This document shows positions 42,410 to 47,908 of a DNA stretch of 64,000 nucleotides, piece after piece. The notes under the pieces were generated by a model, which did not search any database, was not told the DNA's origin, and worked only from the letters and a program-made list of their open reading frames with translations. The DNA comes from an uncultured Geobacter sp. (GTDB lineage: Bacteria > Desulfobacterota > Desulfuromonadia > Geobacterales > Geobacteraceae): contig CAIWTU010000007.1 in NCBI GenBank assembly GCA_903915655.1, positions 1 to 64,000 of the forward strand, read 5' to 3'. The first letter of the stretch is position 1, and every line of letters starts with the position of its first letter. A program made the position numbers and the translations under genes.

Positions 42410-42586
42410 ATGCTTCTCTATAAGGTAGTAGAGATAAGTACGGTAGCAGAAGATTTTTTGGAAGAAGTTCTGAACGAATGGACCCAACTCGGCTGGCGCT
42501 TTGACAGTCTGCAGTTCGCCATGCGTGAATCGAGCAGAAGACCTAGCATGGCTTTTGTCATATTCTGCCGGGAAGAGGAAATATAA
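42410..42586 (+). CDS. Small DUF4177-like protein coupled to polA
   Basis: The 58-residue product begins MLLYKVVEISTVAEDFLEEV and continues with LNEWTQLGWRFDSLQFAM and MAFVIFCREEEI, a strand-helix-strand-strand pattern close to DUF4177. GAGGTG stands ahead of the ATG. Its TAA overlaps the polA ATG by one base (TAATG). Function unknown. Coupling suggests the two are produced in a set ratio. Confidence 0.65.
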   Translation: MLLYKVVEISTVAEDFLEEVLNEWTQLGWRFDSLQFAMRESSRRPSMAFVIFCREEEI

Positions 42587-45255
42587 TGTCTGAAAGACCA
42601 ATGCTCTACCTTATTGACGGATCATCCTATATCTATCGCGCCTTCTATGCCATCCGTCACCTAACTTCTCCCAAGGGATTTCCGACCAATGCCCTGTATG
42701 GCTTCACCCAGATGCTCCTGAAGATCCTCAGAGAGAGAAAGCCGGATCACATTGCCGTGGTTTTCGATGTAGGAAGGGTAACATTCAGAACCGCTCTCTA
42801 CCCGCAATACAAGGCCAACCGCGCTCTGATGCCCGAAGAGCTGGTGCCGCAGATCGAACCTATCAAGGAGATGGTTCGGGCCTTTGAGATCCCGGTGCTT
42901 GAAATGGAAGGTTTCGAGGCCGATGATATTATCGGCACAATTGCCCGTGACTCTGAAAAAAATGGGATGGATGTTGTTGTTGTCACCGGAGACAAGGACC
43001 TGATGCAGATCGTGAGTAAGAGTGTCACGCTACTGGACACAATGAAGGATAAGGCCACAGGAGTGAAAGAAGTCCACGAGAAATTCGGCGTTGGCCCGGA
43101 AAGGGTGACTGACATTCTCGGGCTGGCCGGAGACAGCTCCGACAATATACCGGGCGTCCCGTCTGTCGGGGAAAAAACCGCCATAAAGATGATTCTGGAA
43201 TTCGGCTCCCTTGATGAACTATTGGCGAGGGGTGCTGAAGTAAAGGGGAAAACCGGCGAGAAACTGCGGGAATTTGCAGGACAGGCCCTCTTGTCCCGCC
43301 GGCTTGCCACCATAGATTGCGCAGTCCCGATAACGTACCGTTATGAGGACTTTGCCATCACTCCACCCGACAACAAACGGCTTGCCGAGTTGTTCCGGGA
43401 ATTCGGCTTTACCACCCTAATGAAAGAGCTTACCAGCGAGGCAACCCTCAGCAGGGAGAACTATACAACCGTATTAACCACAACTCACCTGATGTCACTG
43501 GTACAGGCCCTTGAGCAGGCCGCTTGCTTTGCAGTAGATCTTGAAACCACTTCCCTCAATCCGCTGAAGGCCGAGATCGTTGGCATCTCCATTTCTTTCC
43601 GGGAGCATGAGGCTTACTACATCCCGCTGGGGCACCTATACCCCGGTGCGCCCCCGCAACTCGGACTGCCAGACACCTTGGCACTATTGCGTCCCTTGCT
43701 TACAGATCCTTATAAACGCAAGATAGGGCAGAACATCAAGTACGACTACCAGGTGCTCCGCCGTTATGACATCGAAATGGAGGGGATCTGGTGTGACACC
43801 ATGCTTGCATCCTACCTTCTCAATCCGCTCCGTTCGAGCCATGGTCTCGATTCCCTTTCGGTGGAATTCCTGGACCACAAGATGATCTCATACAGCGATG
43901 TGGCAGGGAAAGGGAAGGAGCAGATAAACTTTGCCCAGGTTCCTGTAGAAGAGGCCACCATCTATTCGTGCGAGGATTCCGATGCCACCTTTCTGCTGCA
44001 CGGACTTTTTCTCCCAAGGCTGGGTGAGTTGGAGATGGAACGGCTCTTTTTTGAGCTGGAGATGCCATTGGTGAAGATCCTGGCAGAAATGGAGCTGTTC
44101 GGGGTGAAAGTAGACCAGAGCCTGTTGCAGGAATTGTCGGAGGGGTTTGCCGTCCAACTCGCCTCCCTGGAGCGGGAAATTTTCACTCAGGCAGGGTGCG
44201 AATTCAATATCAATTCTCCGAAACAGCTCGGGGAGCTGCTGTTCGACCGGTTGAAGCTCCCGGCAGGAAGGAAAACCAAGACCGGCTGGTCGACCGATAT
44301 GGATGTGCTTTCCAAGCTCGCCCTCGAGCACAATCTGCCGAAATCTATCCTTCAGTACCGGAGTCTGGGGAAACTGAAATCTACTTATACCGATGCTCTT
44401 CCCCGACAGATTGACAAATCGAGCGGAAGGATACACACCTCATACAACCAGTCGGTGACCAATACCGGTCGATTGTCATCGTCTGAACCGAACCTGCAAA
44501 ACATCCCGATCCGGAGCGAGGAGGGAAGAAATATCCGCCGGGCCTTTATCGCCGAAGAGGGGCATCTGCTCCTCTCTGCGGACTATTCGCAGATCGAACT
44601 GCGGGTACTGGCCCACCTCTCTGAAGACAGGGTATTCTGCGATGCCTTCGCCAGGGACGAGGATATCCATACCCGCACGGCCAGCGAAGTATTCGATATC
44701 ATGCCAGGTCTGGTCACAGGGGAGATGCGACGGCAGGCAAAGACCATCAATTTCGGGGTGATCTATGGTCAGGGGGCCTTCAGTCTGGCCAATGAACTGG
44801 GGGTTTCCACCAGGACAGCCAAGGAGTTTATCGAAAATTACTTTGCCCGCCACAGCGGGGCACGCACATTCCTCGATACCTGCATCAGGGATGCCGGGGA
44901 GAAAGGGTATGTTACCACGCTACTCGGCCGGCGGCTGCCGATTCCGGATATCAGCAGCGGCAACGGCAACATGCGCGCCTTCGCCCAGAGGAACGCCGTC
45001 AATTATCCAATCCAGGGCTCAGCTGCGGATATCATCAAGCAGGCCATGGTGAAGGTTGCCGGCAGGATGCGGATCGATGGTATGAAAAGCCGTCTTATCA
45101 TGCAGGTACACGATGAACTGGTCTTCGAGGTGCCGGAAGAGGAGAAGATTTCCATGGAGATTCTGGTGCGCCACGAGATGGAGCATGCTGTCACACTGCG
45201 GGTGCCCCTCAAGGTCGACATAAACTACGGCTTGAATTGGAGCGAAGCGCATTAA
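42586..45255 (+). CDS. polA: DNA polymerase I
   Basis: The 889-residue enzyme contains all three domains. The 5'-3' exonuclease is at about 1-290 (MLYLIDGSSYIYRAFYAI, GFEADDIIGTIA, GLAGDSSDNIPGVPSVGEKT). The 3'-5' exonuclease spans about 320-490 (CFAVDLETTSLNP with Asp-x-Glu), so proofreading is probably retained. The polymerase follows (LLSADYSQIELRVLAHLSED, RRQAKTINFGVIYGQGAF, and LIMQVHDELVFEVP with the catalytic His-Asp-Glu). It acts in Okazaki-fragment processing and repair. Confidence 0.95.
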   Translation: MSERPMLYLIDGSSYIYRAFYAIRHLTSPKGFPTNALYGFTQMLLKILRERKPDHIAVVFDVGRVTFRTALYPQYKANRALMPEELVPQIEPIKEMVRAFEIPVLEMEGFEADDIIGTIARDSEKNGMDVVVVTGDKDLMQIVSKSVTLLDTMKDKATGVKEVHEKFGVGPERVTDILGLAGDSSDNIPGVPSVGEKTAIKMILEFGSLDELLARGAEVKGKTGEKLREFAGQALLSRRLATIDCAVPITYRYEDFAITPPDNKRLAELFREFGFTTLMKELTSEATLSRENYTTVLTTTHLMSLVQALEQAACFAVDLETTSLNPLKAEIVGISISFREHEAYYIPLGHLYPGAPPQLGLPDTLALLRPLLTDPYKRKIGQNIKYDYQVLRRYDIEMEGIWCDTMLASYLLNPLRSSHGLDSLSVEFLDHKMISYSDVAGKGKEQINFAQVPVEEATIYSCEDSDATFLLHGLFLPRLGELEMERLFFELEMPLVKILAEMELFGVKVDQSLLQELSEGFAVQLASLEREIFTQAGCEFNINSPKQLGELLFDRLKLPAGRKTKTGWSTDMDVLSKLALEHNLPKSILQYRSLGKLKSTYTDALPRQIDKSSGRIHTSYNQSVTNTGRLSSSEPNLQNIPIRSEEGRNIRRAFIAEEGHLLLSADYSQIELRVLAHLSEDRVFCDAFARDEDIHTRTASEVFDIMPGLVTGEMRRQAKTINFGVIYGQGAFSLANELGVSTRTAKEFIENYFARHSGARTFLDTCIRDAGEKGYVTTLLGRRLPIPDISSGNGNMRAFAQRNAVNYPIQGSAADIIKQAMVKVAGRMRIDGMKSRLIMQVHDELVFEVPEEEKISMEILVRHEMEHAVTLRVPLKVDINYGLNWSEAH

Positions 45256-45352: not shown

Positions 45353-45382
45353 TTGACACAGTGTGCCGCCATCAGCCAATAT
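45353..45382 (+). promoter_or_regulatory. Candidate promoter of the aroF leader
   Basis: TTGACA (45353-45358), 18 bases, CAATAT (45377-45382). It would start RNA at or just before the leader-peptide ATG at 45390. The -10 is weak, so an additional start further upstream in the 45256-45350 stretch is possible. That stretch shows nothing else. Confidence 0.4.
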
Positions 45383-45389
45383 AGGCAAC

Positions 45390-45488
45390 ATGAGAATCAA
45401 CAGCTATTTCGACTTTACTACCTTTAACTTTTGGTGCGGCTTTAATTTTATGCCGTCTGCCCGGGGAAAAGGTCTGATTAACGGATAG
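45390..45488 (+). CDS. Phe-rich leader peptide of the aroF attenuator
   Basis: ATG 45390 opens a 32-codon frame ending in TAG at 45486. Residues 6-20 read YFDFTTFNFWCGFNF: seven Phe, one Tyr and one Trp in fifteen codons. Such density is the hallmark of attenuator leader peptides such as PheL, and it lies directly upstream of the DAHP synthase gene. Ribosome stalling at Phe codons 7-14 would decide the fold of the RNA downstream. The minus-strand frame over this region is treated as a shadow. Confidence 0.75.
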   Translation: MRINSYFDFTTFNFWCGFNFMPSARGKGLING

Positions 45489-45612
45489 CTGAATTAAATC
45501 CGGAGTATCGAAGCCGCGGGTGGACAGAAGATAACCTCCCCCCGGCTTTTGCAGTTTTGCAATCATAAGCAGTAGACGTAAAAGGCCGGGGGGGTATCCT
45601 CCGGCCTTTTAC
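45436..45612 (+). promoter_or_regulatory. Transcription attenuator of aroF
   Basis: Five segments can pair in a chain. Segment 0 GCGGCTT (45436-45442, in leader codons 16-18) pairs with AAGCCGC of segment 1 (45511-45517). Segment 1 AAGCCGCGGG (45511-45520) pairs with segment 2 CCCCCGGCTT (45539-45548) with one mismatch. Segment 2 CCCCCCGGCTTTT pairs with segment 3 AAAAGGCCGGGGGG (45580-45593) with one bulge. Segment 3 GTAAAAGGCCGG (45578-45589) pairs with segment 4 CCGGCCTTTTAC (45601-45612), a terminator stem with a TTTT. With plenty of Phe, 1:2 and 3:4 form and transcription stops. With stalling at early Phe codons, 0:1 and 2:3 form and it continues. Confidence 0.7.
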
Positions 45613-45640
45613 ATTTCGGGACAGGAAAGGAGAATGGGTA

Positions 45641-46660
45641 ATGATAATCGTAATGAAAGCGGGCGCCGCAAAAAAAGAGAGGGATGAGGTGCTGAAACGT
45701 ATCAAGGAACTTGGCTACAAGCCGCACGTGATCCATGGAACAACCAGGGACGTTATCGGAGCGATCGGCGATGAGCGTGGCAAGCTGGTCCTGCAATCTA
45801 TAGAATCGATGCACGGAGTGGAGAGCGTGCTACCAATTCTGCAGCCATACAAACTTGCCTCGAAAGAGATTAAAAAGAATCCGAGCATAATCCATGTCAC
45901 CGATACGGTCGCCATAGGGGGGAAGGAAATTATCGTCATGGCCGGCCCCTGTTCGGTGGAGAGCGAGCAGCAGATCATCGAGTCGGCTATCGCCGTAAAA
46001 CAGGCCGGCGCTCAGATGCTGCGCGGCGGCGCATTCAAACCACGCACTTCCCCCTATTCTTTCCAGGGTATGGAAGTAGAAGGGTTAAAACTCCTCTGCA
46101 AAGCCCGGGAGATGACCGGACTACCATTTGTCACCGAGGTGGTAAATCCGGAAACCGTCGATCTGGTGGCAGATTATGCCGATATACTGCAGATTGGAGC
46201 GCGGAACGCCCAGAACTTCGCCCTGCTGAAAAAGGTAGGTCAGCTCAAAAAACCGGTGCTCCTGAAACGCGGCATGTCCATGAGCATCCAGGAGTTCCTG
46301 ATGAGCGCAGAATATATCATGAGCGAGGGAAACCAGGCGGTGATCCTTTGCGAACGCGGTATTCGTACCTTCGAGACCGCGACTCGCAATACCCTGGACC
46401 TTTCCGCCATACCAGTATTGAGGGAGAAAACCCACCTGCCGGTCATCGCCGATCCTTCCCACGGAACCGGCAATCATCATTACGTTGCCGCCATGTCCTT
46501 CGCCGCCGTGGCTGCCGGCGCAGACGGACTGATGATCGAAGTACACCCCGACCCCGAGCATGCGACTTCCGACGGACCGCAATCGCTTAAGCCCGCTAAA
46601 TTTCTCCAGTTGATGGAAAAGTTGAAGATCTTCGCCGAGGCGGCGGGCAGAACAGTCTAG
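45641..46660 (+). CDS. aroF: DAHP synthase (3-deoxy-7-phosphoheptulonate synthase)
   Basis: The 339-residue enzyme condenses phosphoenolpyruvate and erythrose 4-phosphate at the entry of aromatic synthesis. The first 65 residues ([20 protein letters not shown] onward) form the ferredoxin-like domain used for Phe/Tyr feedback in the Thermotoga-type enzyme. The barrel follows: [70 protein letters not shown] and [16 protein letters not shown]. An attenuator precedes it. Allosteric and transcriptional control both point to Phe. Confidence 0.95.
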
Positions 46661-46803: not shown

Positions 46804-47427
46804 ATGAAAAGGAGTGCGATTCTGGTAATAATTCTCATCGGCTGCGTCGTTATCCGTCCTGTTTTGGCAAAGCCGATTCACCATCAGCTACAGGAGACAG
46901 GGCCCGATCCCGGACGAGCTTTCGAGTTGATTCTGGATCTCTGGCGGGAAGGCAGATTCAGCGAACTGTACGACCGGATAATTCCATCGGGCAAGCAGTC
47001 GAGGGAATCTTTCATTTCGCGACTTTCCTCTTCTTACCGTAAACCCGCCTGTTGCTGGGAGAAACTCCAAGATCTCAAAATAACCGAGCTGGATGAACGG
47101 AAGGCAACTCTCCATGCCAGGGTTGGGCTGGAAGGAAAAGACGGTTCGACCGAATTCATTTCCCGCCAGTTCAAGCTGCATAAGTCAGCCGGAGTATGGA
47201 AGGTATCCATCTCCGAGATCACCTCTCTTTCAGGAAAAACAAGGAAGGGCGCTCACAAGCGCAATTACACCCTCAAGAAGAAGGTAGTCCAATCTTTCTA
47301 TCGAGTGAGACAGACCTCTAGGCACTTTTTTCCGGGCGGAATGAGGCAGACTGAATATGCTTTTAATTTCTTAAATCGGGGGGCAGTCAGAAAAGATGAT
47401 CATTTCTATCATTGCGGCAATGGCTGA
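46804..47427 (+). CDS. Secreted hypothetical protein
   Basis: The 207-residue product starts MKRSAILVIILIGCVVIRPVLA, a signal peptide with a cleavage-like ALA-K boundary. ATG 46804 has GGAGGG upstream. The mature part has ILDLWREGRFSELYDRIIPS, RESFISRLSSSYRKPACCWE and KLHKSAGVWKVSISEITSLS, a pattern of exported alpha/beta domains similar to DUF4878-like NTF2 folds (inference). The last ten residues are encoded over the folA start, overlapping by 32 bases. Confidence 0.6.
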   Translation: MKRSAILVIILIGCVVIRPVLAKPIHHQLQETGPDPGRAFELILDLWREGRFSELYDRIIPSGKQSRESFISRLSSSYRKPACCWEKLQDLKITELDERKATLHARVGLEGKDGSTEFISRQFKLHKSAGVWKVSISEITSLSGKTRKGAHKRNYTLKKKVVQSFYRVRQTSRHFFPGGMRQTEYAFNFLNRGAVRKDDHFYHCGNG

Positions 47428-47908
47428 AAACCGGGTAATCGGCCGTGACAACAGCATACCGTGGAATCTGCCTGCCGATCTTGAACGGTTCAAGACAATC
47501 ACAACCGGTCACCCCGTGATCATGGGACGAAAAACGTTTGAAGGCATTGGCAGACCGCTGCCGGGGAGAAAAACCGTCATTATTACAAGAAACCCGGATT
47601 TCACTGCCGAAGGGTGCGTGGTCGCGCACAACCTGCAGGAGGCACTGGCTGAGTGCAAAGGTGCGGATGAGGTATTCATCTGCGGCGGCAGCGAGGTCTA
47701 CCGTGAAGCGCTGACGCTTGCCTCGAGGATTTACTTGACCCTGCTTGATGGGGAGGTTGAAGGGGATACCCTGTTTCCGGAAATACCTGAATACTTTATT
47801 GCGGTGGAACGGGAAGAGGTAAAGGAAAATTCGATTTCCGGCGCCTACATTCGCTATGAACATAAAGACCCGCAGGAGGACGATCCTGCGGGTCGCCCCC
47901 CCGTTTAG
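47396..47908 (+). CDS. folA: Dihydrofolate reductase
   Basis: The 170-residue enzyme reduces dihydrofolate with NADPH. MIISIIAAMAENRVIGRDNS, IPWNLPADLERFK, HPVIMGRKTFEGIG, PLPGRKTVIITRNP, VFICGGSEVYREAL and YLTLLDGEVEGDTLFPEIP are all standard. The C-terminal extension KDPQEDDPAGRPPV is encoded by a hairpin that also serves as terminator for the convergent gene. Confidence 0.95.
   Translation: MIISIIAAMAENRVIGRDNSIPWNLPADLERFKTITTGHPVIMGRKTFEGIGRPLPGRKTVIITRNPDFTAEGCVVAHNLQEALAECKGADEVFICGGSEVYREALTLASRIYLTLLDGEVEGDTLFPEIPEYFIAVEREEVKENSISGAYIRYEHKDPQEDDPAGRPPV
47867..47894 (-). terminator. Intrinsic terminator of the minus-strand operon, inside folA
   Basis: GACCCGCAGGA (47867-47877) and TCCTGCGGGTC (47884-47894) form an 11-bp stem with a 6-base loop. 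On the minus strand it is followed by TTTAT. It lies within the last codons of folA, downstream of the stop of the alcohol dehydrogenase gene at 47924. Confidence 0.6.

Follow-up and report, generated by a model that had tools for sequence, protein, structure and literature searches.

Phenylalanine-rich leaders precede pheA (pheL) and pheST in E. coli, where an antiterminator and a terminator exclude each other within a simpler set of RNA segments than the one described here. The leader upstream of aroF, which is the subject of this work, has in common with these attenuators the Phe-rich leader and the opposition of antiterminator and terminator (see also PMC11802643), but the target genes are others and no Rfam match links the E. 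coli leaders to it. With the Salmonella his attenuator (PMC4046918) it shares the alternation between the pairings A:B plus E:F and B:C plus D:E, the codon block in the leader, the E:F terminator and A:B as default when there is no translation. In distinction to the his system the aroF leader has aromatic codons, the leader ORF encloses segments A and B, and the C:D hairpin, followed by a conserved U tract, itself resembles a terminator; the sequences of the two were not seen to be related.

Attenuation of a DAHP synthase gene has been described for aroR-aroF of C. glutamicum, as PMC11802643 and PMC4046766 describe it after Neshat 2014. The system is likewise ribosome mediated and works through Phe/Tyr codons, but it belongs to another phylum, has the core Phe-Tyr-Phe and responds to Phe and not to Tyr, while the aroF leader here has about 9-12 aromatic codons including an invariant Trp. 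In Acholeplasma the uORFC-13-1 motif ahead of aroF is a proposed attenuator (PMC8632094), with a candidate uORF that carries Phe codons and precedes an aroF terminator; it is limited to this genus and unassigned environmental sequences, is described with a ribosome binding site and was not reported to form a six-segment relay. Known examples of leaderless transcripts for leader peptides come from S. meliloti (PMC7298713), Streptomyces and Corynebacterium. The trpL attenuator RNA of S. meliloti starts at the leader ATG, as is predicted for the aroF leader, but it has Trp codons and trpE as target, and both the trpL RNA and its peptide have additional functions in trans (PMC7298713). Attenuation of DAHP synthase is therefore already known elsewhere (Corynebacterium and, as a candidate, Acholeplasma) and the element described here is a variant of it. 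In the accessible open-access literature, including the main text of Naville and Gautheret 2010, no attenuator of the Geobacter group was found, and none of the Rfam leader families (Phe, His, Trp leaders and others) matched at the gathering cut-off. A lax Rfam search gave only hairpin matches below threshold, among them one of positions 45507-45615 (+) to the alphaproteobacterial sRNA ar35 (36.4 bits, threshold 45), which is probably a resemblance common to double hairpins.

In the window, i.e. the whole 64 kb stretch of uncultured Geobacter sp. DNA that was analysed, the elements upstream of aroF listed in Table 1 lie between this gene and one at 42586-45255 which by its own sequence resembles DNA polymerase I. 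Judging from sequence and folding models, we hold it to be very probable that they constitute a ribosome-mediated transcription attenuator of aroF, composed of six RNA segments in the design of the his operon. The aroF product matches NF006421 with an E value of 1.4e-153, is over the cut-off for TIGR01361 and matches the T. maritima DAHP synthase (1rzm/3pg9) across residues 1-336. Orthologs, about 78-88% identical, are present in nearly all of the 141 genomes of the order. Three more members of the protein family are encoded in the same genome, probably two DAHP synthases (L001 and L003) and KdsA (L004), and upstream of these three an aroF-type leader is absent. A gene which from its sequence is dihydrofolate reductase-like (47396-47908, +) is located shortly 3' of aroF.

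Table 1. Features of the aroF upstream region in the window.
Feature	Position	Strand	Sequence and remarks
-35 element	45353-45358	+	TTGACA; predicted transcription start at or within ~3 nt of leader ATG (45390)
Leader peptide ORF, 32 codons	45390-45488	+	ATG start, TAG stop; MRINSYFDFTTFNFWCGFNFMPSARGKGLING; 7 Phe, 1 Tyr, 1 Trp
Segment A	45429-45443	+	UUUUGGUGCGGCUUU; partner B
Segment B	45450-45466	+	AUGCCGUCUGCCCGGGG; core GUCUGCCC at 45455-45462
Segment C	45510-45527	+	GAAGCCGCGGGUGGACAG; partner B (antiterminator) or D (terminator)
Segment D	45535-45552	+	CCUCCCCCCGGCUUUUGC; 3' arm of terminator T1, or partner of E
Segment E	45578-45593	+	GUAAAAGGCCGGGGGG
Segment F	45598-45612	+	CCUCCGGCCUUUUAC
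Terminator T1	45510-45560	+	C:D hairpin and U-rich tail; window tail CUUUUGCAGUUUUG, U tract interrupted
Terminator T2	45578-45619	+	E:F hairpin and interrupted U tail; CCUUUUACAUUUC; -26.7 kcal/mol; the terminator of the initial annotation
Shine-Dalgarno of aroF	45628-45632	+	AGGAG; from sequence
aroF	45641-46660	+	DAHP synthase, Thermotoga/Bacillus type (class I-beta); NCBIfam NF006421, TIGR01361

The initial annotation had described a 32-codon leader containing YFDFTTFNFWCGFNF, which is indeed present at 45390-45488 (+) and is matched by the leader profile with E = 2.3e-15. The ORF contains a run of codons for the amino acids of the pathway, and it is predicted to be translated. With 8 aromatics in 15 codons, no other short ORF of the window is as rich in aromatic codons. 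As 8 aromatics were also attained in 3/20 shuffled windows, the composition alone is only mildly unusual by this window-based estimate, and the weight of the case rests on position and conservation.

Comparison of aroF upstream regions among relatives, which the initial annotation had proposed as a check, showed the leader frame to be kept in 109/110 genomes of the order whose upstream regions were read and at 38/38 loci that could be tested in other orders of the class, with both B:C and C:D covarying. The last count leaves out L244 and L249, cut by contig ends. A lack of conserved frame and stems, which the initial annotation had named as refuting, is thereby clearly contradicted. Leaders of the order are about 28 codons long, follow the pattern FxFWYGFYFRPSARV and were found at 79/80 named loci, the records including Geomonas, Citrifermentans, Oryzomonas, Trichlorobacter, Pelotalea and Geomobilimonas. 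With a cut-off of E <= 1, a profile built from 25 leaders detected the leader in 221/277 genomes of the class. Outside the order, twenty strong matches were fetched, nineteen of which lie upstream of aroF, and twenty weak-match genomes were examined, nineteen of which have the leader; in each set the one left over is truncated by the end of its contig. A search of 395 genomes of the phylum gave convincing matches only within the class, and just three marginal ones outside (E 0.005-0.009). The sole exception in the order (L024, genome G068) has lost the whole promoter-leader-terminator segment; it represents a natural deletion of the attenuator, with aroF ~40 nt after a response-regulator-like gene. 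The 99% complete genome G135 has neither an aroF ortholog nor a leader. By these sequence comparisons the putative attenuator is conserved throughout the class that includes Geobacter.

Within the order TTGAC begins 35-38 nt upstream of the leader ATG in 106/109 leaders and an SD-like motif is found in only 5/109, and from this spacing and the rarity of the motif transcription should begin at or beside the leader ATG. Outside the order an SD-like motif is present in 18/19 leaders and the -35-like element is located farther upstream. The leader promoter is missing from the output of an automated promoter scan; its hexamer spacing and its fit to the -10 element fall outside what that scan accepts.

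The predicted folding energy of the leader RNA is -85.2 kcal/mol (z = -4.1 versus dinucleotide shuffles), and the RNA can adopt two mutually exclusive sets of pairings, A:B, C:D and E:F on one side and B:C and D:E on the other. All five are stable in the window and in the medians of 68 nonredundant leaders, which are -10.2 (A:B), -19.8 (B:C), -21.2 (C:D), -19.9 (D:E) and -23.1 kcal/mol (E:F). Three pairings of the initial annotation, there numbered 1:2, 2:3 and 3:4, exist as C:D, D:E and E:F (-17.8, -26.7 and -26.7 kcal/mol in the window). Its 0:1 is probably B:C (-21.0 kcal/mol), segment 0 being ambiguous since A:C pairs too in the window, and the A:B arm, which completes the his-type design, was missing from its account. 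We rejected A:C as conserved antiterminator: at least 7 uninterrupted pairs are found in 81% of leaders of the order but in 5% outside it, while B:C is found in 99-100% of leaders. In the region of segment A the third position of the codon after Trp is nearly fixed and its second position varies.

Covariation was scored in alignment cells, which count sequences and not events, so that related rows inflate the cell numbers given here. In the order, 98.7% of B:C cells are paired, both sides are changed at 5/8 pairs and 22 cells are doubly changed; 0/500 shuffles were as good and slid controls were 39-52% paired. Class-wide, 90.9% are paired, with both sides changed at 6/8 pairs and 17 doubly changed cells. 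The helix is maintained through the changes GUCUGCCC/GGGCAGAC to GUCCACCC/GGGUGGAC and to CUCCGCCC/GGGUGGAG, and doubly changed pairs occur in at least three unrelated clades. For C:D 91.4% of cells are paired class-wide and 59 are doubly changed (0/500 shuffles), and the helix switches from AAGCCG/CGGCUU to AACCAU/AUGGUU between orders. From the alignment of the order RNAalifold selected B:C, and from that of the class it selected C:D. As the two helices share C, exclude each other and both have compensatory changes, both must be under selection; a segment held by two partners simultaneously is, at the level of sequence, the expected signature of a switch. In L111/L189 (Desulfuromonadales bacterium Emb289P4bin35) the end of the peptide is changed from RPSA to RVAT, yet B:C is preserved by compensatory changes, so that it is the RNA and not the peptide which is conserved there. 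D:E is more stable in the order than when shuffled (-20.8 versus -11.6 overall) and weak outside it; a partner-swapping test for coevolution of D:E gave no signal, real partners being no better than swapped ones.

The effect of ribosome position was modelled by folding 68 leaders with a ribosome-sized mask, the transcript ending at C and codons numbered relative to Trp. B:C formed in nearly all leaders with the ribosome on codons -7 to +3, in 74% at +4 and in none at +6 to +15; aromatic codons extend to +5. Once the ribosome has reached the stop codon, either it covers B or A:B pairs again, and a B:C of at least 5 pairs was seen in 19% of leaders. When no ribosome was placed, 41% of leaders, the window not among them, favoured B:C in the short transcript. 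In these models the position of the stall thus matches the choice of helix, a ribosome in the aromatic block permitting B:C and one past the block abolishing it, and the stalling logic put forward in the initial annotation works in silico. Equilibrium folds with D present favoured C:D except for stalls at codons about -2 to +2, and in the window B:C reached ~50% only with the ribosome on codons -1 to +2. As B:C only partly beats C:D at equilibrium, the mechanism requires that B:C form before D is transcribed.

The initial annotation had taken E:F as the sole terminator, with C:D merely blocking D:E and the early Phe codons as sensors. In this exact form we regard the model as improbable. The E:F hairpin just before the DAHP synthase gene is real and stable, although a simple terminator scan of the window did not call it (45578-45612), and it is the one that remains in the Geomonas clade, where T1 is decayed. 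However, it is the second terminator and a dispensable one: T2 is present in most relatives but decayed or absent in L111, L228, L232 and L235, where C:D stays. At least 5 U in the 9 nt past the last GC pair follow C:D in 75/86 leaders and, as C:D also survives the loss of E:F, the putative core terminator, and the class-wide one, is C:D (45510-45552). Early stalls do favour B:C, as claimed, but so do stalls up to codon +4. In Geomonas and relatives (L032, L049, L053, L061 and L089) T1 has no U run, and T2 and D:E remain; the relay must there work on T2 alone.

The six-segment attenuator which we prefer would operate as follows. Transcription would begin at or beside the leader ATG, with translation of the ORF proceeding at the same time. 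Scarcity of charged Phe-tRNA, and probably of Tyr- or Trp-tRNA too, would stall the ribosome in the aromatic block, leaving B free as C emerges, so that the antiterminator B:C could form. D would then be free for E, neither terminator would form and aroF would be transcribed. A ribosome which has moved past the block would cover B, or A:B would re-form near the stop codon, allowing C:D and termination at T1; a polymerase escaping T1 would meet E:F (T2).

Concerning the amino acids sensed, Phe codons predominate and Trp is present in 95/95 and Tyr in 93/95 nonredundant leaders; the in-order set was anchored on Trp, and no in-order leader was discarded for want of it. The first base of the Trp codon is invariant though it is outside the A:B pairing as drawn, and in L246 the Trp codon is elsewhere within the block. 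The phenylalanine-type label of the initial annotation is correct as to the dominant codon and too narrow as to the others. The codon content suggests that Phe, Tyr and Trp may all be sensed, which fits an enzyme of the common pathway. The invariant Trp and a peptide motif conserved across the order would also be expected if a small molecule made the nascent peptide FWYGFYFRPSAR arrest the ribosome, with the RNA helices reading out the stall, but we judge this very unlikely, as Phe and Tyr interchange freely at most aromatic positions, the RPSA codons overlap segment B, so that pairing explains their conservation, and L111 and family f6 alter the peptide yet retain a B:C pairing. A constitutive leader, whose terminators only lower aroF expression and sense nothing, is hardly credible: terminator-like hairpins are common between genes, but here two exclusive helices sharing C are both under compensatory selection and an aromatic codon block precedes the common aromatic gene across the class.

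Taking the attenuator as the preferred reading, it is possible, and we propose it only tentatively, that it is pan-aromatic, i.e. one six-segment relay with two serial terminators throughout the class, in which Geobacterales switched from SD-led to leaderless initiation with the same regulatory peptide in both translation modes. Leaders with and without Shine-Dalgarno, together with those lacking T1 (Geomonas) or T2 (L111, L228, L232, L235) and the genome lacking the whole element (G068), offer natural variants for attenuator theory, and the aroF leader is a ready covarying RNA family absent from Rfam. If true, the attenuator, apparently unreported in the literature searched, would place entry into aromatic synthesis under class-wide RNA control in Desulfuromonadia, which include the electrode- and metal-respiring Geobacter group.
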